Virus record (IMG/VR): IMGVR_UViG_3300024346_000274
Coordinates: 1 to 33,511 of that record
Strand: one strand, 5' to 3'
Origin: a virus
DNA: 33,511 nucleotides
Below, piece after piece: positions 6,993 to 33,511 of this stretch. The translations under genes and the position numbers were made by a program. Each line of letters opens with the position of its first letter. Within the stretch, counting starts at the first letter, position 1. The notes under the pieces were generated by a model. It was given only the letters and a program-made list of their open reading frames with translations. It made no database searches and was not told the DNA's origin.

Positions 6993-9260
6993 ATGGCTAT
7001 AAAAGAATTTAAAAATATAGAAGAAAAAAAGGGCTATCGAGTTGAGAAAAAAGATAGAGAAATCTTCGAACGCGAAGTTCGTAGAGGTATCTTTGGTATT
7101 GATGTAGGTGATATCATTGAGTTTATTGTATATGATGCTTCAGATAATCCTCTTCCTCAAGAATCAGCAAATGGTAAAACTGTTAGATATGTTTCTTATA
7201 CAGATACAAATATTCAGAAATATTTTAGTAAAGTAAATCAAACTAAATTTAATGTTAAAAGAAATGGTGCTGAAGAATTCTTTGTTGATATTGAAAAATT
7301 AATAAAAGAGGCGGGATATTCACAAGGAATATTTAAAACATCTGTATCTTTACTCAATAGAAGATTGGGTTCAGAAGAACGTAAATTTGATAAAGCATGG
7401 ATACATGAAATATCACCATCAAGAACTGAAGTAAGAGTTTTACCAGTAATAGATGAGCAAACAGGTCATCCAAATTCTGATTTAGATATACGATACAATA
7501 CCTTTACAAGTGGTGAAGATTTTGCAGCTGATGTTCTTCAGTTCTTAGATGAATTTTCAGCACAATTTGATATAACAGCAGTTTTAAAAAAAATGTTGGC
7601 TTTAAGAGGTAAAGTTGCAGCTGGTGAAGGATACATAAAACTAATTGAAAAAGAATTTAAAATAGATAATTTTGAAAGATGGTTATCTCTTGTAAAAATA
7701 TCCTTTGATAAATCATTAGACCATTACAGAAATAATCGATATTCAAATATTTTAGAACAAGATAAGTTTGGACAATCTACTGGTGACTCATTTGGTATTA
7801 ACTTTAATTCTAAAGGAATTATAAGTCAACTTTGTGATATTGGAGAACAATGTGTAAATTATCATTTACCAAATCAAGAAATTAGGTCAGAAACTAGAAG
7901 GTCTAATACTCAACAAAAAACTTTAGATGATGTTGGTAAAATTTTACAAACTGTAAAATCAGATGGAGAATTCTTAGCAGAATCACCAACTGAAAAGAAA
8001 CCAGCAATAAGGGGATGTAGAGACCCTAAAGCAACAAATTATAATCCGGCTGCAACTGTGGATGATATATGTAAATATACGGTAACGGTAACTAAACATA
8101 GGAAAATTCCTATACCACCACCACCTCCACCACCAATACCACCGCCAAGACCAAATCCACCTGCTCCATCTGGAGGGTCTCCAAGACCAAAACCCGCGGC
8201 AACAAATTATTCGATAAGTGCATCTCCAATTGAAGGTCAACCATCTCCAAAAAATGGTAGGCTTATACAACAATTTAGAATACAAGCATCTCCATCGGAT
8301 ATTAAAAAATTTGGTGCAAATGCAAAACAGGCTAGAATTACAGGACTTCCATCATGGGCAACAATAACTGTTTCTGAAAGAAATCTTGGATATAGTAGTG
8401 GAAATTGTTTATTACGAGTACGTGTGCTTAAAAATACTGGAGCTGCTAGAAGTGGAACTGTTTCGTTCTCATCAAATTTACCGGGAAATCCAACAACATC
8501 AGTAACTATTTCACAAGCAGGAACTGCAGCGGCACCAGCTCCTAAACCACAACCACAGCCCAAACCAAAACCACCAAAAAAACTTATAGATGAAATAGAT
8601 TTACCTGATATGCTTAATAATTCACTTGCCTTTACAGTAAACGAATTATCATCAGCTGAAGGAATAGCACGTAGTGGATTTTCTGCTTACAATTCTCCAG
8701 CATATTCTGGAGAACCAATGGGTGCGTTACTATCAGGATGTTTAGTTGGAAATACTCAAATAGAAATGGAAAATGGTACTTTTAAATCAATAAAAGATGT
8801 GTTAATTGGAGATTCGTTAATGGGATTAGATATTAAAACACTTTCTAGTCATTTTGAAGTTGAAGATAATTGGGAAGGTAAAGATATTGAACAGTATGAT
8901 AACAAGCCGTTTAAAGTTCTAAATAAAATCACTATTAGTGATGCAGAGGTGTATTCAATCAACAATGGATTATTAGAGTGTAGTGAGGACCACAAACATT
9001 TAGTTAAACGAGATGATAGTTGGAGGATACGAAATACATTACAACTACAACCTGGTGATATCATGTTAGATAGGGATAAAAATACAATTTTAATCGATAG
9101 TATTATGTTAGATAGACAAGAGGATGTGTATTTAATTAGGTTAGATGGTAAACATACTTATTATGCAAACGGTATATTAACCCACAACATAAAACCAGAC
9201 GGAGGAATTGCTGGATTTAATACTTCATCATTATATGATGGTTCTGGTAGAAGAAGATAA
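6993..9260 (+). CDS. Tail protein with BACON-like and C-terminal Hint (intein-like) domains
   Basis: This 755-residue multi-domain protein starts two bases after the previous stop. Residues 1-330 are a phage structural-type region containing an EISPSRTEVRVLP motif. Residues 341-362 carry a cysteine-bounded DPKATNYNPAAT motif ending DDICKY. Residues 374-391 are polyproline. Residues ~405-510 resemble a BACON domain (LPSWATITVS, RVRVLKNTGAARSGTVSF, TSVTISQAG). A Pro/Lys linker follows. Residues 583-732 form a Hint domain: block A starts at C583 (CLVGNTQIEMENG), block B includes the S664-E-D-H667 motif, and block F/G reads YYANGILTHN with H731-N732. Residue +1 is Ile733, not Cys/Ser/Thr, and only 23 residues follow. 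Protein splicing in the usual sense is therefore unlikely; self-cleavage or a degenerate role is possible. No homing endonuclease insert is seen. Confidence 0.75.
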   Translation: MAIKEFKNIEEKKGYRVEKKDREIFEREVRRGIFGIDVGDIIEFIVYDASDNPLPQESANGKTVRYVSYTDTNIQKYFSKVNQTKFNVKRNGAEEFFVDIEKLIKEAGYSQGIFKTSVSLLNRRLGSEERKFDKAWIHEISPSRTEVRVLPVIDEQTGHPNSDLDIRYNTFTSGEDFAADVLQFLDEFSAQFDITAVLKKMLALRGKVAAGEGYIKLIEKEFKIDNFERWLSLVKISFDKSLDHYRNNRYSNILEQDKFGQSTGDSFGINFNSKGIISQLCDIGEQCVNYHLPNQEIRSETRRSNTQQKTLDDVGKILQTVKSDGEFLAESPTEKKPAIRGCRDPKATNYNPAATVDDICKYTVTVTKHRKIPIPPPPPPPIPPPRPNPPAPSGGSPRPKPAATNYSISASPIEGQPSPKNGRLIQQFRIQASPSDIKKFGANAKQARITGLPSWATITVSERNLGYSSGNCLLRVRVLKNTGAARSGTVSFSSNLPGNPTTSVTISQAGTAAAPAPKPQPQPKPKPPKKLIDEIDLPDMLNNSLAFTVNELSSAEGIARSGFSAYNSPAYSGEPMGALLSGCLVGNTQIEMENGTFKSIKDVLIGDSLMGLDIKTLSSHFEVEDNWEGKDIEQYDNKPFKVLNKITISDAEVYSINNGLLECSEDHKHLVKRDDSWRIRNTLQLQPGDIMLDRDKNTILIDSIMLDRQEDVYLIRLDGKHTYYANGILTHNIKPDGGIAGFNTSSLYDGSGRRR

Positions 9261-18068: not shown

Positions 18069-18641
18069 TTGAGTTTACTAATAAACCGTTTTAATAAATG
18101 GGGATTTATTCATATACCTAAGACTGGAGGAACTTCATTGAACTCTGTTTTAAAAAACCAACAAGGTACTGAATTTGTTTCTAAATCTCACAACCACATA
18201 GGTAAATTTGAGAACATAAAAGATTACTATATATTTTGTATAGTTAGAAATCCTTTTACTCGATTTGCTTCTGCCTATTATCACTATTGTAGAGATAATG
18301 GATTTTCTAGTGTTAGAAAGTTTATTGATTCTATTTTCGAACACGATTATCTATACTTTCCCCAAAGCTATTTTACAACTAACGGAAGTTCATCTGATAA
18401 AAAGGTGAGTTTCATCGGTAGATATGAAAACTATGTAAAAGATGTAAATCATATTTTTCAAAATATAAAAGTACAAGAATCACTACCGCACTTAAATCGT
18501 AATTCAATCTACGATAAACACCCACAGTTAAATCAAGAATCTTTTTACAAACATATGTATCAAGAAGAGTGGATGAAAGATTGGGTACGAGAGAGGTACA
18601 AAAATGATTTCAAAATTTTTAACTATGACATGGACATATAA
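18069..18641 (+). CDS. Sulfotransferase-like protein (PAPS-dependent type)
   Basis: This 190-residue protein has the two classic PAPS-binding motifs of the sulfotransferase fold. The 5'-phosphosulfate loop is at residues 15-25 (HIPKTGGTSLN), and the 3'-phosphate motif is at 59-71 (VRNPFTRFASAYY). Family-typical FIGRYEN at 115-121 and a C-terminal YKNDFKIFNYD also match the Sulfotransfer_2 type. Such enzymes move a sulfate group from PAPS to a sugar or other acceptor; the acceptor here is unknown. The length is short for the family but includes both cofactor motifs. No ATG fits: the frame opens at TTG 18069, just ahead of the conserved core, with no clear ribosome binding site, so the exact start is uncertain. 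It sits 11 nt after a small late gene and overlaps the next gene. Confidence 0.8.
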   Translation: MSLLINRFNKWGFIHIPKTGGTSLNSVLKNQQGTEFVSKSHNHIGKFENIKDYYIFCIVRNPFTRFASAYYHYCRDNGFSSVRKFIDSIFEHDYLYFPQSYFTTNGSSSDKKVSFIGRYENYVKDVNHIFQNIKVQESLPHLNRNSIYDKHPQLNQESFYKHMYQEEWMKDWVRERYKNDFKIFNYDMDI

Positions 18642-19104
18642 CGGAAAATGCATAACAGAAGTATCAGATATGCCAGAAGGTGTATTTGGTTTTATATATA
18701 AAATTACAAATGGTAAAACAAATGAGTTTTACATTGGTAAAAAACAAGTAGTTTCAGTTAGAAAACGAAAGTTTGGTAAAAAAGAAACTGCTGCTCTTAC
18801 TGATAAGAGAATGAAGAAATATGAAATGGTAACCAAAGAATCTGATTGGTTAGAATATCGTTCTTCTAATAAAGTAGTAAAAGAATGGTTTGATAATAAT
18901 GATAAAGCTTTGAATGAAGATAGGAGAAGTGATATTAATGACCAACTTGAACTAAGAATATTGAGATTTTGTTCAAATAAGAAATCTCTTACCTATTATG
19001 AACTACAAGAACAATTTTCTCACGATGTATTAGCAAATGAGTTATCACTTAATGATAACTTATTAGGAAAGTTTTTCAGAAAAGATTTGGATATTACAGA
19101 ATAA
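18604..19104 (+). CDS. GIY-YIG-like nuclease domain protein
   Basis: This protein has 166 residues if started at ATG 18604, which has a GAGAGG site 7 nt upstream. A second ATG at 18625 (start MTWTYNGKCI) has no such site but fits the usual start of the related phage proteins. The region around residues 29-50 (GFIYKITN, then FYIGKKQ) matches the first part of a GIY-YIG domain, with the GIY tract as FIY and YIG intact. Basic residues follow. The remaining part is helical and charged. GIY-YIG proteins are usually metal-dependent DNA nucleases, and phage forms include homing (Seg-like) enzymes. The distal catalytic Glu/Asn cannot be placed with confidence. The start overlaps the sulfotransferase gene by 38 nt (17 nt from the second ATG). 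Confidence 0.65.
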   Translation: MISKFLTMTWTYNGKCITEVSDMPEGVFGFIYKITNGKTNEFYIGKKQVVSVRKRKFGKKETAALTDKRMKKYEMVTKESDWLEYRSSNKVVKEWFDNNDKALNEDRRSDINDQLELRILRFCSNKKSLTYYELQEQFSHDVLANELSLNDNLLGKFFRKDLDITE

Positions 19105-24326: not shown

Positions 24327-27300
24327 ATGGCGTGTATAATAAAAGTTGGTAATAAATTTGAAAACCTTAGTGGTTATAATACATATATAACCGATAAAGA
24401 CCCAAATTCTCAATATTTTAGAGTAAACAAATTCGCAGATACATTCACCGCGGGTAAAAATTTATTCTTAATGGAAGGTTCTGAGTGTCTAAAGGAATCA
24501 ACAGAACTTAGAATAGAAATAGTAGATGCTGATGGTGATACTCTTTACGTAGAACCAGGTCGTGGGGTACCCGATTATTATGAAGGAAATTCTATCGTAC
24601 TATCTTCACACGTTTATGAAAAAACTCCAGTTGGTCCTGCTAAGATTACTATTCTTGGTGAATTAAGAGATTATTTTGATGAAGATGGAATCAAAAGACC
24701 AATCCCTTCAGATTGGGAAGGTGCGTATAATGTCAAGTGGGAAAAAGAGTTTTACATTAATAAAAACGAATCAAACAAAACTCCTGTAATATTTTATAAA
24801 AGACCTGAGATTACTATTGAAGAAGTAGAATCTACAATCGTAGAACAAACCTTTTCAACAATTACACAAACTGGTCAAGTTATTGGTAGAGCAGAAAATC
24901 CTCCAAGGGGAACTGATTTGAATACTTGGAGAGCAGGAACTCTTTATAGGTTAGAAAAAAGTGGTGGTGCTGGTTTCAAATCATCCATGGATGAAAATAT
25001 TATCAGTATTCCATCTTTGGAATATGAAGGACGTGTAAAGGAAGTAATAAGTAGTAATGCTTTATTAGTTGATAGACCATTTATAGATTCTGATAATAAA
25101 GTTATCGATAATTTAGCAGATTTGGATTATTCAATATCATTTACTGATTTTGGGAATAGAACATCTAATAATTCTGCCGTTACCGCATCATTTGGTAGAA
25201 TAAAACTTTCTAGATTAGATACGTTTACTGGTAATGTTGATAAGTTAAAGGTATTTAAAAAATCTCGTTCAGATGTTGGTGATTATAAATTTTCAGATGA
25301 AATTAAAATTGTAGCAGGAAACTTATTAAGAGACCCGCTTATACCTGGGTCTGATTTGGATGGTGGATTTGGTAGATTAACTGAATCAAATGTTGAAACT
25401 TATTGGCAAACCTCATCAATACAAATTAGTGGTTCTGATTCAACAATATCAGCTGATGATGATGATTTGTTTGAATCTATAAAAATAAACGTTCCATCAA
25501 GTAGCCTTGCAACTGATACTGTTGATTTGGTAACTAACACTATTTTTGATATTTACGATGATGTTGATTATGAATTAAACTTTAGAACTTTAGTTAGTGG
25601 TGCATTTGAAGATGTCATACCAGGTGAAGTAACTGTTGTTTCACAATCATATGCAAGAACATATTATTACAAATATGACCCATCTAAATTAACTTTATTT
25701 GAACCAACTTATGTTTCTGAAAGTTCCTATACTGAATTGGATGCACCTAATTCACAAAGTGTAGATTTAACCAAACCATTGGTTTATGATAATAGTAGAG
25801 TTTCTTTTTATAATACTCCACAAAATTTAACTGGTTCAGTTTATACATCTATACCAAGTGGATATGCATATACCCATTCACATGATACAACACTAACCTT
25901 TGATACAACAAGTGGTGATTGGGGAACTAATTCAAGAGTACAGAGTGATTCAGATAATAAAACAAATATTGTTGCTACATCTGGTTCTTTCTGTGGAAAT
26001 TTTAATTTAGTAGTTTGGTTAGATAGTGGTTCATATGAATTACCAACGGGTGGTTCACCAACTGATGTAAGAACTTACATTGAAACATTTGATTCAGCAT
26101 CAGTTAGAATAGCAGTATTATCTTTTGAGAATATAGATACAGATGCTAAATTTTACTATAAACATAGTGCTACTACATTAGATGAATTAGATTCTTTTAG
26201 AACATCTACCGAGTATTCTTTAGAAAATATTGATACTAATGATTATAATGATAGTTCAGTCGTATCAACTTTTAATACCGGTTCTCAAACTATAATAAAC
26301 TACAATGATGGTGGTCATCACTATGTTCATATAGATTATAGAACTTTAAGAAATATAGAACCATTAAATGCTGATTTGGTTACTGTAAAGAGATTAGATT
26401 CTCTTAATGGTGATATTTTATATGGAACTTCTTATGATATAAATTCAATAAACTTTGAAACAGGTGATATTGAATTTTCACACAATTCAACAGATTCCAC
26501 AATAAGTGGTGTGTTGGCTTTAGAAAATGGTCAGGCCGTTCTTACAATAGGAAGTGATACAGATACTGGTTATATAGTAGAGTTGGATTTTCAACGTGGT
26601 ATAATGGTATTTGTTGGTGAAATTGATTTCACAGAATTAGTTCCCGCACAACGTTCATATGATTTATATGATTTATTTGATTTAAGTGGTTCAAATTGGA
26701 TTTCAACGGGTTCTACTGAATTATTTGTACCAAGGGTACCACCAAGAGGTGGGGATTATTTGTATTCAGATAATGGGTATCCATACTCATCAACCACGTT
26801 TAGTGATAGAAATTTTTTAACAACTGAATTTACATCGCCATCATCATCTGATGATAATTTTACAAAACCGCTAGAAATTCCTTATATTTTCAGAAATGAT
26901 GATGATATTATTGAAAATGTATATGTAGAAGATTCAGACCAAATTTATGTAGTTTCTTCAGTTTCATCATCAAGTGATATAGATAATACAAATTACATAT
27001 ATGACCAAGATGTTGTATTTACTGGTTGGTTCTATACTGGTTCTTTAAGTGGTAGTATTTATGTAGATGAATCTCAAGATAGCAATACAAACAACGTATC
27101 CTTACCAACATATAATTCTCTAATAACCTCACATACACCAATTTCATCATCAATAGGTGAGTTTAATATTGTTTTATTAACTGATAGTGGTTCATCAGCG
27201 ATACCTACAAATACAGGTTCGGTTGAGTTCCAAGTAGAATATTATCAATCTGCTTCACAAGAATTAAGAGCTGCAATTGCATTAAGAAATGTAGAAACAG

Positions 27301-30300
27301 ATGCAATGTTCTTTTATAATAATTCTGCAACATCTCAATCAGTATTAGAATCTTATTCTGGCAGTACAAACATTATTTTAGATTCAATAGATAGTGGAGA
27401 TTTTAATAATACTGAACTTTGGTTCTTATCAACTGGTTCTCAAGCAATCTTTGATTTGGAATCTGGTAGTAATTCTCATTTCATTTATATTGATTACAGA
27501 ACAAATAGAAATTCTGAACCATTAAATGCAGATTTAAATGAAATAACTGCAATATCTCAAGTTGGTACAAATAATTTCTTACCATTAAAAGCAAGAGAAG
27601 TATTTCCACTTTCTGGTAGTACCGATATTACAGGTTCAGTAACATCAACCGATTATTATACATCACAATTACCACTTGTTGCTGGAAATCATTTATATAC
27701 TCTTTCCGATTATCCATTTGTTCCAGCACCAGCAAGTGATGGAACTTATGTTACAGATGATGTAGACCCAACAACAGATGTAACAATACCAGATACACTA
27801 TTTGAAATTCCTTATGTTTTTGATACTGTTGATGGTAAAATAGAAAATGTATATGTAAAAGAGTTTGATGATATTTATACTGCATCATCTGATAATGGAA
27901 CTGGTATAACAACCTTTACAGACCCACCAGTTTTTGTTTCACAATCATTAAAAGCAGCTGATACAATTATTCCAAAAACCATATCAGCATTTATTACAGG
28001 TTCATATCCAAGTGGCGGATTAGATTACCCATTCAATGAACCTTTAGTAACCTTTACTGCAAATTCTGAATTTAATTCAAGACAACAAATACAACATTTA
28101 TTTACCATGCCATATTCGGGTTCAGGTAAATTAGGATTTGCATTTAGAGGTGATGGGTGGCAAGTTTCTAAAGTTGATTTTAAACCATCACAAGATGCAG
28201 CATTTTCACCAAAAGTTTTTGATGTATTTGATGAACAAAATAGAACATTACCAGTTGAAACATTTGATTACAAGTTTGAACTTTATGATGTAAATAACAA
28301 CTATGTACCAGTTGAGTTGTTTGCAAGTAAAGAATTTAGTGGTGGTAATAAAGTAAGTGATGAAGTAATAAAATTATTAACATTTGAATCAGATAGAACT
28401 GCGTTTAGGTTTTATAGTGGTTCACTTGCTAATCCATCATTTCAACAAATTAAATTTAATTTTTCAAAAACTAACGCTCTATCGGGTTCAATTACATTTG
28501 AATCTTCTGCGTATGATAGGGATGGTAATTATATAGACCCAAGTTCTTATACTGGAGATTATCCTGGTGGGTTAACGAGTGTAACTAGTAATAACGCATT
28601 ACTTACTATTGCAAGCTTTAGTGGTAGTGATTCATCATATGAGGTAAGTTCAATTGTTTATACGTCATCGGTGGATAACGTGGAAGAATATGAAACAATT
28701 TTCAGATTAGAAGATGGTCAACCTGTTGCTGATTTAATTGTTAATAACGATAGAACTGTTATGACATTTAATCAAGCAAATGGTATTGAGGACCCAACTG
28801 AACAGATATCAACAATAACAGTAAAAAGAAAAAATTTAGAATCAACCACAGAAGTAATTACCGCTAATTCTGCATCAGTTGTTGGTTCTGCTCCACCTCT
28901 AACACTTTTATCAGATAATACAACGACTGGTATAGCAACTTATTTTGTTAGTGGGTCATCTCTAAACTTACAGAGTGGTTCTCTAACGTATTCATTTACA
29001 TCATCGGATGAATTTGGTGTACAAGTTGATAACTCAACCACAGTAACCCCAATATCGTTTTTAGGGGGAGTTGTATTGTATCTATCAAATGAAAGAGGAG
29101 TTTTACCTGCGTTTGCAAGTGGAATAATTCCATCTGCATCTTTTTCATACACAAGTGGTTCAACAAAACTTTATGTTAATGGTGACCAAATAGATTACAA
29201 TAATAGTGGTGGAAATAATACTTACAAAATTACTGGTGTAACTGGTTCTGGTATTACTCCAAATGAAGTAGCACCAACAACCAACAATTATGGTGGTATT
29301 CCTGGTACAATGCCAGAAGAATCATCATCATTGGAGATAAATATACAATATACTGATTCAAGTGGTGAGTTTTATGATTTTGGCAGAGAAGCAAACTTTA
29401 ATATTGTAAGGGAGGGTGAACAAGGACAACCAGGTCTTGAAGGTTCCAATGGACCGGGTCTTGTGTTTACAGGTCAATGGACTGGAAGTAGAGATTATAC
29501 TAGAACAACTGGTTCTCTTGCTAGAGCAGATGCTGCATTACAAAATAATGAATTCTATTTAGCTATTTCATCGAGTGGACCAAGTTCAGCAGAAGGTGCA
29601 ATAAGTCCAGCAGATGATACTTCATCTCTTTATTGGGAAGCCCTTGGAACGGCATCAAGATTTGTTGCTGCAGAGTTAGCAATATTTGCAGAATCTTATG
29701 TACAGAACAATATAAATGTTGGAACAAACAATAGTGGTTCAGCATCAGCAGCAAATATTACAATCGCTGGTGGAACTAACTATCCTTATATTTCAATTGA
29801 CCAAGGAGCAACAACAGGTACTCAAGGATATAATGTTGGTAATGGTATTTTCTTAGGTATTAATGGAAATACTGGTACTGGTTCGTTCTCAATAGAAAGT
29901 GGATTAACAAATAATGAATTAACTTGGGATGGTGATACTTTAAATATTCGTGGTAATATAACAGTTACAAATACTGAGGATTATATCACACCAACCGATA
30001 CTGGTTCAATGTTAGATGGATATACTCAAGATGCGAATACATCATCTTTACAAAATCCATCAGAATACTCATTTGGTTCAGTATTTTCTTTAGCATCTGC
30101 ATCTGCAGTTACTGGTCTTAACCTTACCGCAGATTATTTAGGATACTATGATGGTTCTGCGTTTGATTCTTATATGGATAGTAGTGGAAACTTTTATCTA
30201 GGAGGAGATAGTGGAGCATTACAATGGGATGGTAGTAATTTAGTTATTTCAGGTGCTATTAGTATAACAAATACTTCTGATTTTGCACCAACAAATGCTG

Positions 30301-32051
30301 AAGCTAATGATTCAAGTCAAGATAATCCATCAAATTATGATTTTGGACCTGATGCTTCATTTGATTTAAGTACAGTAGGAACTCCAACAACTAATGGATT
30401 ATACCTTGGTTCTGATAAACTTGGTTTTTATAATAGTGGTTGGAAAACCTACATGGATAATAGTGGTAACTTTTATCTCGGTGGTACGAGTGGAGCACTT
30501 ACATGGGATGGTTCTTCTTTAGCGATTGAAGGTGATATAACAGTTACCAATACTTCTGATTTTGCACCAACAGATGCTGAAGCTAATGATTCAAATCAAG
30601 ACAACCCATCTTCATATTCATTTGGTGGAAGTGGATTTACACTAGCAACAAATACAGCAAATACTGGACTAAATTTAACTTCTGAATATCTTGGATACCA
30701 CGATGGTACTGATTTTCAAACCTACATGGATAATAGTGGTAACTTTTATCTTGGTGGAACTGGAGGTAAGTTAACATGGAATGGTAGTGTATTAGATATT
30801 GAGGGTAAGGTAAAAGCAACTTCAGGTGAATTCACAGGTACAGTTACTGCTGGACAAGGTCAAATATCAAATTTTGTAATTGATGCTGATAGTTTAGAAA
30901 CAACCGATGGGTCATTTTTATTAAATACTTCTGAATCTGGAAGTATAATTTTTCAAGAAGGAGGAAACCTTAAAATAAAAATAAGTAATACTGGAGAGTT
31001 AACACCAAACACCACTTTTACTACCCCAACAGTACAACAACAAACTTGGGTTGGTCAAGGTAGTTCAACAGAAACTGCCAACTCTGCATATGCATATGTA
31101 TCCTTTTATGATGGTACTACTGAGATGAGTTCAGCTCAATATAGTAGTTTACCTGAAATTTCAACCACAAGTGACGTAAATAATTTCCCTGCTACATTTA
31201 CCGCAACCGTACAAACCCCAACTGGTGGTAAATATATTGATAGTACTACGAGTGGTTGGAGTGGAACTCCGAGTTCTCATAATCTACAAGTGTACTTAGT
31301 AGTTCGATTATATGAAGGTACTTCTAATAGTCTTGGAAGTCAAATTGGAGAAAAAACTATATTTGCAGAAGCATATTCAAATACAAATTCTGCTAGTACA
31401 AATGGTGTCATGGGTAGTAATCCGGTGTCATTTTCAACAACAATTAATGGAGGTTCTTATTATAGAATACTAACAGGTACTAAAAATAGACAAGGTGCTG
31501 CTTATGGTGGGACTCTATCATCTACTGGTTACTTAAACTCAACGTTTTATAATCCAGGTATAAGCGATTTTAGTGTTTCTGTTACGGATCCTGGTAGTAA
31601 CCCTTTTACTGAAATAACACAAGGTGGATTTCAAGTTGTTACAAGTAATACTAAAGCAGTATTAGTTAATACCGATACAACAGGAGATGCATTATCGATT
31701 ACTGGTTCACTATCAGCAACTGGTAACATTACTGCATTTTCAACATCAGATGAAAGATTAAAAGAAAACATAATACCAATACCACTTGCTCTTGATAAAG
31801 TAAATGAGTTAAATGGTGTTACCTTTGATTGGAAAGGTGGATATGAAGATGTTCATCAATTTAAAGGTGAGGATATTGGAGTTATAGCACAAGAGGTAGA
31901 AAAAGTAATTCCTCATATTACAAACATAAATAAACAAAATGGATATTATGGGGTAAGATATGAAAAAATAACTCCATTACTTATTGAAGCAATAAAAGAA
32001 CTTTCACAGAAAGTAAATGATTTAGAAAATGAAATTAAAAGGTTAAAGTAA
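24327..32051 (+). CDS. Giant tail fibre/adhesin with C-terminal S74 chaperone domain
   Basis: This is a 2574-residue protein. Residues ~1-170 are an N-terminal domain, probably for virion attachment. Residues ~555-880 and ~940-1190 are two diverged copies of one long module (shared blocks: GNFNLVVWLDSGS / GEFNIVLLTDSGS; DYRTLRNIEPLNADL / DYRTNRNSEPLNADL; IENVYV). Residues 1697-1711 are five Gly-X-Y collagen-like triplets, followed by a CBM-like module ending YWEALG (~1712-1776). Residues ~1870-2170 carry tandem repeats with SGNFYLGG and TNTSDFAP. The end is an intramolecular chaperone of the Peptidase_S74 family: S2474-DERLKENI, a DIGVIAQEVEKVIP block and a closing coiled coil. Such domains trimerise the fibre and then cut themselves off before the serine. 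The protein is probably the host receptor-binding fibre, with a late promoter core in front. Confidence 0.88.
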   Translation: MACIIKVGNKFENLSGYNTYITDKDPNSQYFRVNKFADTFTAGKNLFLMEGSECLKESTELRIEIVDADGDTLYVEPGRGVPDYYEGNSIVLSSHVYEKTPVGPAKITILGELRDYFDEDGIKRPIPSDWEGAYNVKWEKEFYINKNESNKTPVIFYKRPEITIEEVESTIVEQTFSTITQTGQVIGRAENPPRGTDLNTWRAGTLYRLEKSGGAGFKSSMDENIISIPSLEYEGRVKEVISSNALLVDRPFIDSDNKVIDNLADLDYSISFTDFGNRTSNNSAVTASFGRIKLSRLDTFTGNVDKLKVFKKSRSDVGDYKFSDEIKIVAGNLLRDPLIPGSDLDGGFGRLTESNVETYWQTSSIQISGSDSTISADDDDLFESIKINVPSSSLATDTVDLVTNTIFDIYDDVDYELNFRTLVSGAFEDVIPGEVTVVSQSYARTYYYKYDPSKLTLFEPTYVSESSYTELDAPNSQSVDLTKPLVYDNSRVSFYNTPQNLTGSVYTSIPSGYAYTHSHDTTLTFDTTSGDWGTNSRVQSDSDNKTNIVATSGSFCGNFNLVVWLDSGSYELPTGGSPTDVRTYIETFDSASVRIAVLSFENIDTDAKFYYKHSATTLDELDSFRTSTEYSLENIDTNDYNDSSVVSTFNTGSQTIINYNDGGHHYVHIDYRTLRNIEPLNADLVTVKRLDSLNGDILYGTSYDINSINFETGDIEFSHNSTDSTISGVLALENGQAVLTIGSDTDTGYIVELDFQRGIMVFVGEIDFTELVPAQRSYDLYDLFDLSGSNWISTGSTELFVPRVPPRGGDYLYSDNGYPYSSTTFSDRNFLTTEFTSPSSSDDNFTKPLEIPYIFRNDDDIIENVYVEDSDQIYVVSSVSSSSDIDNTNYIYDQDVVFTGWFYTGSLSGSIYVDESQDSNTNNVSLPTYNSLITSHTPISSSIGEFNIVLLTDSGSSAIPTNTGSVEFQVEYYQSASQELRAAIALRNVETDAMFFYNNSATSQSVLESYSGSTNIILDSIDSGDFNNTELWFLSTGSQAIFDLESGSNSHFIYIDYRTNRNSEPLNADLNEITAISQVGTNNFLPLKAREVFPLSGSTDITGSVTSTDYYTSQLPLVAGNHLYTLSDYPFVPAPASDGTYVTDDVDPTTDVTIPDTLFEIPYVFDTVDGKIENVYVKEFDDIYTASSDNGTGITTFTDPPVFVSQSLKAADTIIPKTISAFITGSYPSGGLDYPFNEPLVTFTANSEFNSRQQIQHLFTMPYSGSGKLGFAFRGDGWQVSKVDFKPSQDAAFSPKVFDVFDEQNRTLPVETFDYKFELYDVNNNYVPVELFASKEFSGGNKVSDEVIKLLTFESDRTAFRFYSGSLANPSFQQIKFNFSKTNALSGSITFESSAYDRDGNYIDPSSYTGDYPGGLTSVTSNNALLTIASFSGSDSSYEVSSIVYTSSVDNVEEYETIFRLEDGQPVADLIVNNDRTVMTFNQANGIEDPTEQISTITVKRKNLESTTEVITANSASVVGSAPPLTLLSDNTTTGIATYFVSGSSLNLQSGSLTYSFTSSDEFGVQVDNSTTVTPISFLGGVVLYLSNERGVLPAFASGIIPSASFSYTSGSTKLYVNGDQIDYNNSGGNNTYKITGVTGSGITPNEVAPTTNNYGGIPGTMPEESSSLEINIQYTDSSGEFYDFGREANFNIVREGEQGQPGLEGSNGPGLVFTGQWTGSRDYTRTTGSLARADAALQNNEFYLAISSSGPSSAEGAISPADDTSSLYWEALGTASRFVAAELAIFAESYVQNNINVGTNNSGSASAANITIAGGTNYPYISIDQGATTGTQGYNVGNGIFLGINGNTGTGSFSIESGLTNNELTWDGDTLNIRGNITVTNTEDYITPTDTGSMLDGYTQDANTSSLQNPSEYSFGSVFSLASASAVTGLNLTADYLGYYDGSAFDSYMDSSGNFYLGGDSGALQWDGSNLVISGAISITNTSDFAPTNAEANDSSQDNPSNYDFGPDASFDLSTVGTPTTNGLYLGSDKLGFYNSGWKTYMDNSGNFYLGGTSGALTWDGSSLAIEGDITVTNTSDFAPTDAEANDSNQDNPSSYSFGGSGFTLATNTANTGLNLTSEYLGYHDGTDFQTYMDNSGNFYLGGTGGKLTWNGSVLDIEGKVKATSGEFTGTVTAGQGQISNFVIDADSLETTDGSFLLNTSESGSIIFQEGGNLKIKISNTGELTPNTTFTTPTVQQQTWVGQGSSTETANSAYAYVSFYDGTTEMSSAQYSSLPEISTTSDVNNFPATFTATVQTPTGGKYIDSTTSGWSGTPSSHNLQVYLVVRLYEGTSNSLGSQIGEKTIFAEAYSNTNSASTNGVMGSNPVSFSTTINGGSYYRILTGTKNRQGAAYGGTLSSTGYLNSTFYNPGISDFSVSVTDPGSNPFTEITQGGFQVVTSNTKAVLVNTDTTGDALSITGSLSATGNITAFSTSDERLKENIIPIPLALDKVNELNGVTFDWKGGYEDVHQFKGEDIGVIAQEVEKVIPHITNINKQNGYYGVRYEKITPLLIEAIKELSQKVNDLENEIKRLK
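25980..27900 (+). repeat. Diverged internal duplication in the giant fibre
   Basis: Two coding modules, roughly 25980-26960 and 27150-27890, share a series of protein blocks in the same order: a DSGS strand, a T-DAKFYY / T-DAMFFY block, LENIDTNDYND / LDSIDSGDFNN, IDYRT-RN-EPLNADL, and IPY-F...IENVYV. Nucleotide identity looks low, so the duplication is old. Confidence 0.7.
29900..30830 (+). repeat. Tandem coding repeats in the giant fibre
   Basis: The region holds about three and a half copies of a ~90-100-residue unit whose landmarks are L-G-Y/F-Y, YMDxSGNFYLGG, a LTWDGSxLxI strand and ITVTNTSDFAPTxAEAND. Two copies share an exact 34-nt stretch (30445-30478 and 30718-30751, offset 273 nt), which implies recent duplication or gene conversion. 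The earliest copy lacks the SGNFYLGG part and the last lacks the TNTSDF part. Confidence 0.8.
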
Positions 32052-32052
32052 T

Positions 32053-33511
32053 ATGCCATTACCTGCAGAAAATCAACCAATATCATTTGAAGATATTAAT
32101 ACCGAACTTGGTAATAGTGCTCAGGCTACATTAGATTTGGAATCTGCCTCTGTATCCTTTGAACTTACTGCACCACATGGTATGAATGAACTTGCGGGAT
32201 TATCTTTTAACACCTTTACATACGAAACAGCAAATGTTTATAATTTTAATGTAGTTGGAAATGGTACTGTTACTGCACCAGTTGCAACAATAGGAACAAT
32301 TACATCAAGAGTTTATAGTAGTGGATATAATAGTGGTACAAATAAATATCCAATAGTTGGAACTAGTACTGAAAGAAGTGTTGTTGTAACTGTACAAGCA
32401 CCAGCAACTGGTTACAGTAATAATGGTGCATCGGTAACTGGTACTGAAACTGATACTCAACCAGACCAAAACTTTAGTTTTGCTGATAGTGGTGTTACTT
32501 CAGGTGATGTACTTATTAATGCGAATGGTAGTGTTAGTGTTACTGTTGATGAAGGTACATTCTTATCTTCAGACCCAAGTTCATTCACACCAATAGATAC
32601 AGAAACAACTAATAATACAGTAGAGATTACAATTAGTGTTCCTGGTGGGTATGCAAATACAGGTGGTACTGTTTCTCAAACATTTACAAATATAACTCAA
32701 CTAGCTGCAGTACGAACACTTCAACTTGCAACAAGTGATTCAATCCCATCGGGTGAAGATACGTTTGTTACATTGACAATTAATGATGTTAACTTTAGTG
32801 ATACTTCTTGGACTCTTGCAGCAGATGGAACACCTACTTTGGGAAGTCCTTCACTATCATCAACAAGTGGTACTGGTGATGCGACTGTAAATCTTACGTT
32901 TAGTGCAAACTCAAGTGGAGGTTCACGAACTGGTACGTTTACAGTTTCTGAATCAGGAGGTAATTCCGCTAGTGTAACTATTACACAAGGAAGTTTTACA
33001 TTAAATCCACCAACTGTATCATTGAGTTCATTTGCATCTGATTTTGTATATAACGATACTACAACGTTCCAAACATTAACTGGTACTATTACTGGTGGTG
33101 GAACTCCTACTTCTATAACATTCTTCGCAAACTCATCGGATTTCGAATTTGTACAAACCGATTCGGATGTGGTCGTAACTGGTGGTGGTGGTATTAATAC
33201 TGGAACTGTAAATAGTGGAGCACTTACACAAACTTCATTTACAATTGGTGTAAGACCAACAACAACTAACAATGGTGGAGCAGATAAAACAGTAGATGTT
33301 CTATTCACTGCTACAAAAACAAACCATGGTCAAAACCAAGCTTCAGCAACTGCTACTCAAGAATATTATGTTGCTCCGGTAACATGGAGTGCAACCCCAT
33401 CCTCATTTACTGGTGCTGATAGATTTAATACGGCGGGTGAAACTCAGTATATAACTCTTAGTACATCAGTAGCTTGGACAGCAGCTGTAACTGGTACTGG
33501 TTTTAGTTTAA
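32053..33511 (+). CDS. BACON/Ig-like tail protein, N-terminal part (runs off window)
   Basis: The frame is open from the ATG at 32053, one base after the fibre stop, to the end of the window, giving 486 codons with no stop. The N-terminus (MPLPAENQPISFEDINTELG) resembles the start of many phage tail-fibre proteins. The rest is Thr/Ser/Gly-rich beta modules. One around residues 215-315 resembles BACON repeats: WTLAADG, an ATVNLTFSANSSGGSRTGTF strand pair and a closing SVTITQG. Another opens near residue 440 (VTWSATPSSF) with VAWTAAVTG. It is probably a fibre or adhesin built on repeated carbohydrate- or surface-binding modules, sharing the late transcript of the giant fibre. The antisense frame at 32721-33308 is a shadow. 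Confidence 0.72.
   Translation, partial: MPLPAENQPISFEDINTELGNSAQATLDLESASVSFELTAPHGMNELAGLSFNTFTYETANVYNFNVVGNGTVTAPVATIGTITSRVYSSGYNSGTNKYPIVGTSTERSVVVTVQAPATGYSNNGASVTGTETDTQPDQNFSFADSGVTSGDVLINANGSVSVTVDEGTFLSSDPSSFTPIDTETTNNTVEITISVPGGYANTGGTVSQTFTNITQLAAVRTLQLATSDSIPSGEDTFVTLTINDVNFSDTSWTLAADGTPTLGSPSLSSTSGTGDATVNLTFSANSSGGSRTGTFTVSESGGNSASVTITQGSFTLNPPTVSLSSFASDFVYNDTTTFQTLTGTITGGGTPTSITFFANSSDFEFVQTDSDVVVTGGGGINTGTVNSGALTQTSFTIGVRPTTTNNGGADKTVDVLFTATKTNHGQNQASATATQEYYVAPVTWSATPSSFTGADRFNTAGETQYITLSTSVAWTAAVTGTGFSL

Follow-up and report, generated by a model that had tools for sequence, protein, structure and literature searches.

The window considered here is the whole stretch of 33,511 nucleotides of the IMG/VR virus record IMGVR_UViG_3300024346_000274. 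The open reading frame at positions 6993-9260, for which 16 orthologues were aligned, encodes a 755-aa protein of the tail/baseplate region that bears a Hint domain; this gene and all of its features described below lie on the plus strand. Just upstream are a gp25-like gene (GPW_gp25, E 7.7e-15) and a gp6-like baseplate wedge gene (phrog_219, E 1e-22); downstream lies the gene for a 1728-aa protein that matches LamG weakly. The protein begins with a conserved region (approximately residues 1-375; 6993-8117), which the orthologue alignment shows to be common to Hint-bearing and Hint-less orthologues, and it contains a BACON domain at residues 453-509 (8349-8519; PF13004, E 2.7e-6) flanked by proline-rich linkers. 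The protein has no meaningful match in PHROGs or PADLOC, and a tblastn search of named phages with its N-terminal 566 aa returned no match. The full-length AlphaFold model has a pLDDT of 43 and is usable for the BACON part only.

Several other genes of the window deserve mention. A 2574-aa protein (24327-32051), likely a tail fibre, ends in a strong Peptidase_S74 domain (E 8e-16). At 18069-19104, the end of a sulfotransferase-like ORF is overlapped by an ORF for a SegE-type GIY-YIG endonuclease, both ahead of a primase-like gene; in Microcystis phage Mel-JY01 (L005), a GIY-YIG gene likewise stands in front of a primase-like gene. A 195-aa ORF on the minus strand (32721-33308), without a Pfam match, ends the otherwise plus-strand gene block.

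The Hint domain spans the 150 aa from Cys583 to Asn732 (8739-9188). The initial annotation of this DNA had proposed a domain of about 150 residues with an intact C583, an SEDH block B and an HN block G, and every element of this proposal is borne out: sequence comparison, by profile, fold and homologues, confirms residues 583-732 as a Hint domain above chance, and the alignment contains the block B motif S664-E-D-H667 (8982-8993) and the block G motif T730-H731-N732 (9180-9188). The absence of an endonuclease also holds, as 150 aa leave no room for one. The same is true of the Ile said to follow Asn732 with only 23 residues beyond. The +1 codon, ATA (9189-9191), encodes the non-nucleophilic Ile733, the +2 codon, AAA (9192-9194), encodes Lys734, and the C-terminal tail I733-R755 (23 aa, IKPDGGIAGFNTSSLYDGSGRRR; 9189-9257) is closed by a stop codon at 9258-9260.

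The profile matches of the window Hint are weak to all Hint families and consistent with intein/Hint profiles. TIGR01443 (intein_Cterm) matches with 19.1 bits against a curated cut-off of 15.6, and PF14890 matches all eight members of the window family, with a best E of 5.6e-5; scores stay below the Pfam family cut-offs. In addition, tblastn with the window Hint returned phage Hint domains and inteins with E down to 1e-7. When the shallow, low-confidence AlphaFold model of the Hint (pLDDT 51), whose quality does not extend to active-site geometry, was compared with the PDB by Foldseek, every listed row belonged to the HINT superfamily, and the top five were bacterial-intein-like (BIL) entries (2lwy, 6y75 and 6tmm among them) with E of approximately 1e-5. 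VIA-align of the same model likewise gave HINT entries throughout, with Z up to 7.9, and did not favour BILs over inteins. Two motif positions depart from the usual pattern: where class-1 inteins have Asp in block F (VYD), the window has Leu714, with Leu in all eight alleles, and Ser replaces the block B Thr. These two substitutions could slow the N-S shift.

The window family comprises the window protein and seven further alleles at the same place in orthologues on other viral contigs (L027, L028, L031, L032, L033, L035 and L045); a near-identical copy on one viral contig (99.98% over 20 kb) was left out as a non-independent allele. The Hint is exactly 150 aa long in all eight, without indels, and the seven others are 60-69% identical to that of the window. 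C1, S82, H85, H149 and N150 are invariant throughout. By itself, this conservation of the catalytic residues is weak (P 0.024), because 60 of the 150 residues are invariant within the family. The predicted N-terminal scissile junction, Gly582-Cys583 in the window (8736-8741), has Gly at -1 in 8/8 alleles, preceded by another Gly in seven of them and by Ser in the window. On the other side of the domain, the +1 residue is I in the window and Y, R, A, Y, F, N and Y in the other alleles, never C, S or T, while +2 is Lys in all eight. The tails are 23 (window), 11, 35, 32, 85, 84, 24 and 6 aa long. Only one Hint was found per Hint-bearing contig, and no second Hint or split partner was detected in the same contigs. 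A profile of the eight alleles gave no match in bacterial and archaeal genomes.

The position of the window family among viral Hints was revealed by profile-profile comparison, which joins it to a second viral Hint family (E 7e-16) and to the C-terminal Hint of phage NCTB (hhalign E 1e-10). The viral survey covered 142 loci, including the added L002 and L035, of which 55 are non-redundant at 90%. All 55 have Cys1 and all 55 have the terminal His-Asn; an apparent Cys1 exception in L084, a BACON-type protein with a C-terminal Hint like that of the window, arises from an alignment start inside GGGGGC-HLAGEI. The +1 residue is Lys in 46, Y in two, A in two, and V, F, I, R or N in one each; the count of 0/55 for C/S/T shows the uniformity of this lineage and not of all phage Hints, because the seeds of the survey lacked C/S/T at +1. 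More distant Hints of Erwinia jumbo phages have Thr there. Pairwise identity falls to 19%, and exactly ten alignment columns are invariant over the 55 Hints. C1, H85, H155 and N156 (alignment columns) are all among these ten, for which the chance P is approximately 8e-6.

The Lys+1 Hints fall into two families. Proteins of the first, approximately 440 aa long, read VDSYDGNSAAL-C...THN-KGGN and have an fn3-like C-terminal part; those of the second, approximately 578 aa long, read NTINQPDF-C...SHN-KGTT. The two share about 38% Hint identity, with Lys at +1 in 46/46 and Gly at +2 in 45/46 members. Most loci of L046-L056, L062-L117 and L148-L207, all on viral contigs, carry Lys+1 Hints in virion-like proteins, and a tail-sheath-like gene, recognised by eye, adjoins the Lys+1 Hint gene in L050 and L052. 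No Hint-less homologues of the Lys+1 proteins were found in named phages, and 12 viral records show the Hint-bearing place only. Another survey member, L126:1198-3489, encodes a tail-fibre-type protein with a long collagen-like repeat and a C-terminal Hint ending in HN-RKLSQFE. With the wider profile, bacterial and archaeal genomes gave two PT-HINT-like matches only (L214 and L215). Taken together, the comparisons suggest that the window Hint belongs to a large viral group in phage structural proteins that is apparently undescribed; in the open literature searched, outside which most subscription papers lie, no description of non-splicing Hint domains in phage tail proteins was found.

Comparison of the alleles indicates that the Hint of the window family is under purifying selection: pairwise NG86 dN/dS between alleles is approximately 0.17-0.40, ratios that are rough because some dS values exceed 1. 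The codons of C1, H85 and N150 change synonymously between alleles, and that of N150 synonymously only. This bears on whether the Hint is an inactive domain that serves as a structural cap or linker module only. The lost block F Asp, the low profile scores and the absence of the cassette from some orthologues would all be in keeping with such a role, which is nonetheless very unlikely, given that the ten columns invariant over 55 diverse viral Hints include the catalytic residues and that the N150 codon tolerates synonymous changes alone.

The host-protein C-terminus that carries the Hint is a variable region, exchanged between near-identical phages. L027 and L028 share 98.4% identity in the N-terminal 375 aa and only 69.3% in the Hint. 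At the DNA level the identity is for the most part 85-100% as far as approximately position 7500 (L027 coordinates), apart from one 100-base block at 62%, drops to 53-75% across the linker, Hint and tail, and returns to 92-100% from the gene end onward. Conversely, L035 has the most diverged N-terminus, yet its Hint is 79% identical to that of L027. Near-identical N-termini with diverged Hints in one pair and similar Hints in the other imply that the Hint with its tail is an exchanged cassette. The tail protein can do without the cassette, as Hint-less orthologues exist; the C-termini of these are unrelated in the alignment of 16 orthologues, where allele sampling is limited and no seamless Hint-less (empty-site) allele was found.

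Phage inteins are usually regarded as parasitic elements in genes for replication, packaging or nucleotide metabolism, and a decayed selfish mini-intein that has lost its +1 residue would also present a phage Hint fold without an endonuclease. The same searches do return ordinary phage inteins. Such an origin appears extremely unlikely, since the Hint sits in a variable C-terminus and not in a conserved enzyme site, the Hint-less orthologues show no precise empty site, and the +1 position is non-nucleophilic throughout a family that is under purifying selection. One of the ordinary inteins met in the searches concerns Salicola phage SCTP-2, whose protein 204 (L003:4930-6900), annotated as hypothetical, is apparently a UvsX/RecA-like recombinase with two inteins, both with Ser at +1. 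As a relative of the window Hint, this match was rejected, because both domains are ordinary inteins with +1 Ser in a UvsX/RecA-like protein.

In Hint chemistry, C1 and the block B His make the N-terminal (thio)ester, and the His-Asn pair cyclises the terminal Asn; the nucleophile for normal splicing is a Cys, Ser or Thr at +1. Without that residue, BIL domains yield predominantly cleaved products (PMC7664689; PMC7765530). The proposal that the window domain is of BIL type and cleaves where an intein would splice is supported by the comparison, in which the catalytic residues are invariant and +1 is never C, S or T (8 alleles, 55 relatives). We favour the view, with a probability of about 0.62, that this segment is an A-type BIL-like autoprocessing Hint that forms a cleavable cassette at the C-terminus of a phage tail protein. 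The window Hint is probably active in cleavage, and cleavage at both ends appears to fit the pattern of conservation best. Use of the thioester alone, as in Hedgehog proteins, is disfavoured because the His-Asn would then be free to drift, yet it is conserved. Selection for splicing to the tail is disfavoured because +1 and the tail should then be conserved, yet they vary.

Some splicing might occur all the same at low efficiency, joining residues 1-582 to the 23-aa tail and making the Hint a removable spacer. Every splicing block is present except +1, and some A-type BILs can splice (PMC5874633). We regard this as quite unlikely here: the tails are unconserved, range from 6 to 85 aa and are mostly unrelated in sequence, so there is no evident spliced product for selection to act on, and no aligned orthologue carries the spliced sequence without a Hint.

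Under the autoprocessing reading, Cys583 would attack the Gly582 carbonyl after folding and form a thioester at Gly582-Cys583. The Gly582 thioester would then be hydrolysed or taken by an outside nucleophile, while Asn732 would cyclise independently and cut the chain before Ile733. The predicted main products are the tail protein 1-582 (64.4 kDa), the Hint 583-732 (17.3 kDa) and a 23-residue peptide 733-755 (2.4 kDa); little or no spliced protein, which would weigh 66.8 kDa, is expected. By analogy with the shedding of S74 chaperones, the likely use would be tail-protein maturation, with the C-terminal piece removed after folding or assembly. If active, the Hint would give phage tails a further way of self-processing during maturation, alongside the S74 chaperones. 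For the study of phage inteins, this lineage represents a standing, exchangeable part of virion proteins, in which the cutting residues are kept and the residue for normal splicing is absent throughout. Gly-Cys Hints that halt at the thioester are also useful for protein ligation.

Beyond what had been annotated initially, the comparisons point to an exchanged cassette, a large phage family and a conserved Lys at +2 (or +1). Outside the Hint domain itself, no feature is kept more strictly than this Lys, which stands at +1 in two families and at +2 in the window family. Lying beside the Asn, it may aid Asn cyclisation, hold the strand, or take the acyl group to give an isopeptide bond. In the last case, the Lys would stand in place of Cys/Ser/Thr and its side-chain amine would take the thioester, yielding an isopeptide-branched or cross-linked virion protein by lysine-based splicing or ligation, an outcome that we consider rather improbable. 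More generally, the Gly582 thioester could be attacked by the amine of Lys734 (+2; +1 elsewhere), or by a Lys or the N-terminus of another virion or cell-surface protein, so that an amide or isopeptide bond would form and no free C-terminus would remain. Such capture is in line with Lys at +2 in 8/8 alleles though +1 varies freely, with Lys at +1 in every one of the 46 non-redundant members of two families sharing only about 38% identity, and with the Gly-rich -1 context of the C-terminal Hints (window family, NCTB and L084). On the other hand, the Lys may do no more than help the Asn to cyclise, pack against the domain or be inherited from an ancestor, and it is missing from NCTB, where Ala and Pro stand at +1 and +2, and from L084, where Val and Glu do. 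We also know of no Hint in which a Lys side chain serves as the +1 nucleophile, which counts against capture. Judging by the title of reference 16 in PMC7664689, BILs have been reported to ligate without any nucleophilic side chain. On balance, thioester capture seems unlikely. The strict Lys at +1/+2 makes a new ligation chemistry directly testable.

The tails beyond the Hint differ from one allele to another. The window tail is clearly related to that of L035, with GFNTSSLY in both, and probably related to the L032 linker that leads into S74 (shuffle P 0.003). The L032 and L033 tails are related to each other through S74, and a homology test found the remaining allele tails mutually unrelated. 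Peptidase_S74 (chaperone of endosialidase) matches the L033 tail at 24.2 against the Pfam cut-off of 22, and the L032 tail at 18.5, just under it. At L032:8239-8493 and L033:8227-8478, a Hint, a short linker and a Peptidase_S74 domain with SDRRLK follow one another as predicted tandem self-processing modules; S and K in this motif have the spacing of known S74 sites. In these two alleles, cleavage at C1 would shed the S74 domain because it sits beyond the Hint, and shedding by N-terminal cleavage would in turn point to post-folding maturation. By analogy, this suggests a role of the Hint in tail maturation.

Several known systems were considered and set aside. A splicing intein does not fit, since C/S/T at +1 is missing in 8/8 alleles, no seamless Hint-less allele was found in the limited allele sample and the Hint-less C-termini are unrelated. 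The B-type BIL has all intein motifs except the C-terminal His-Asn, which is present in all viral Hints surveyed. The Hedgehog Hog domain has a sterol-recognition region and no C-terminal cleavage, whereas here the tail is short and the His-Asn conserved. The pretoxin HINT (PF07591, PT-HINT) is alike in that a large modular protein carries a Hint at its C-terminal junction, and the cellular matches L214 and L215 are PT-HINT-like; however, the window Hint scores 19.5 bits against a cut-off of 27.7, and no toxin domain follows it, the window tail being 23 aa long and the longest tail of the family being S74.

Other systems share part of the architecture. The Peptidase_S74 intramolecular chaperone (PF13884) is likewise a self-cleaving C-terminal module of tail fibres, and immediately follows the Hint in L032 and L033, but it has another fold and chemistry (Ser/Lys) and is absent from the window protein. 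The large intein domain protein of phage NCTB (LT598654, L002) has, at the very C-terminus of a tail-region protein, a (Gly)6-Cys Hint that closes with His-Asn, followed by a 7-aa tail with Ala at +1; it differs in its unrelated host protein (Calx-beta) and in having no Lys at +1 or +2. Similarly, a collagen-like virion structural protein of Alexandravirus-type Erwinia, Dickeya and Yersinia jumbo phages (phrog_38766; L004, L036 and L057-L061) has a C-terminal SGC/TGC Hint and, after it, a 10-aa tail, but this tail, TDIVAKAEK, is conserved and the +1 position holds Thr, or Val in the Yersinia phage. The Tetrahymena BUBL1 locus encodes BIL2 (6tmm, 6y75), which ranks with the best PDB matches both in the sequence-profile search (E 5e-4) and in the fold comparison, although it comes from a eukaryotic locus and another host protein, with an overall identity of approximately 20%.

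A close parallel is provided by the A-type BIL domains (Amitai et al. 2003; Dassa et al. 2004, as cited in PMC7765530 and PMC5874633). The window Hint differs from these in residing in a phage structural protein, in the block F change from Asp to Leu and in the invariant Lys at +2 (+1 in the sister families), and its sequence gives no more than weak scores against BILs. What the two have in common is a Hint fold of approximately 150 aa with Cys1, a His-Asn end, no +1 nucleophile, no endonuclease and a location in a variable region of a surface-type protein. The window family thus combines the HINT fold, Cys1, the block B His, His-Asn, the lack of an endonuclease and a free +1, and in these sequence features the window Hint agrees with the A-type BILs.
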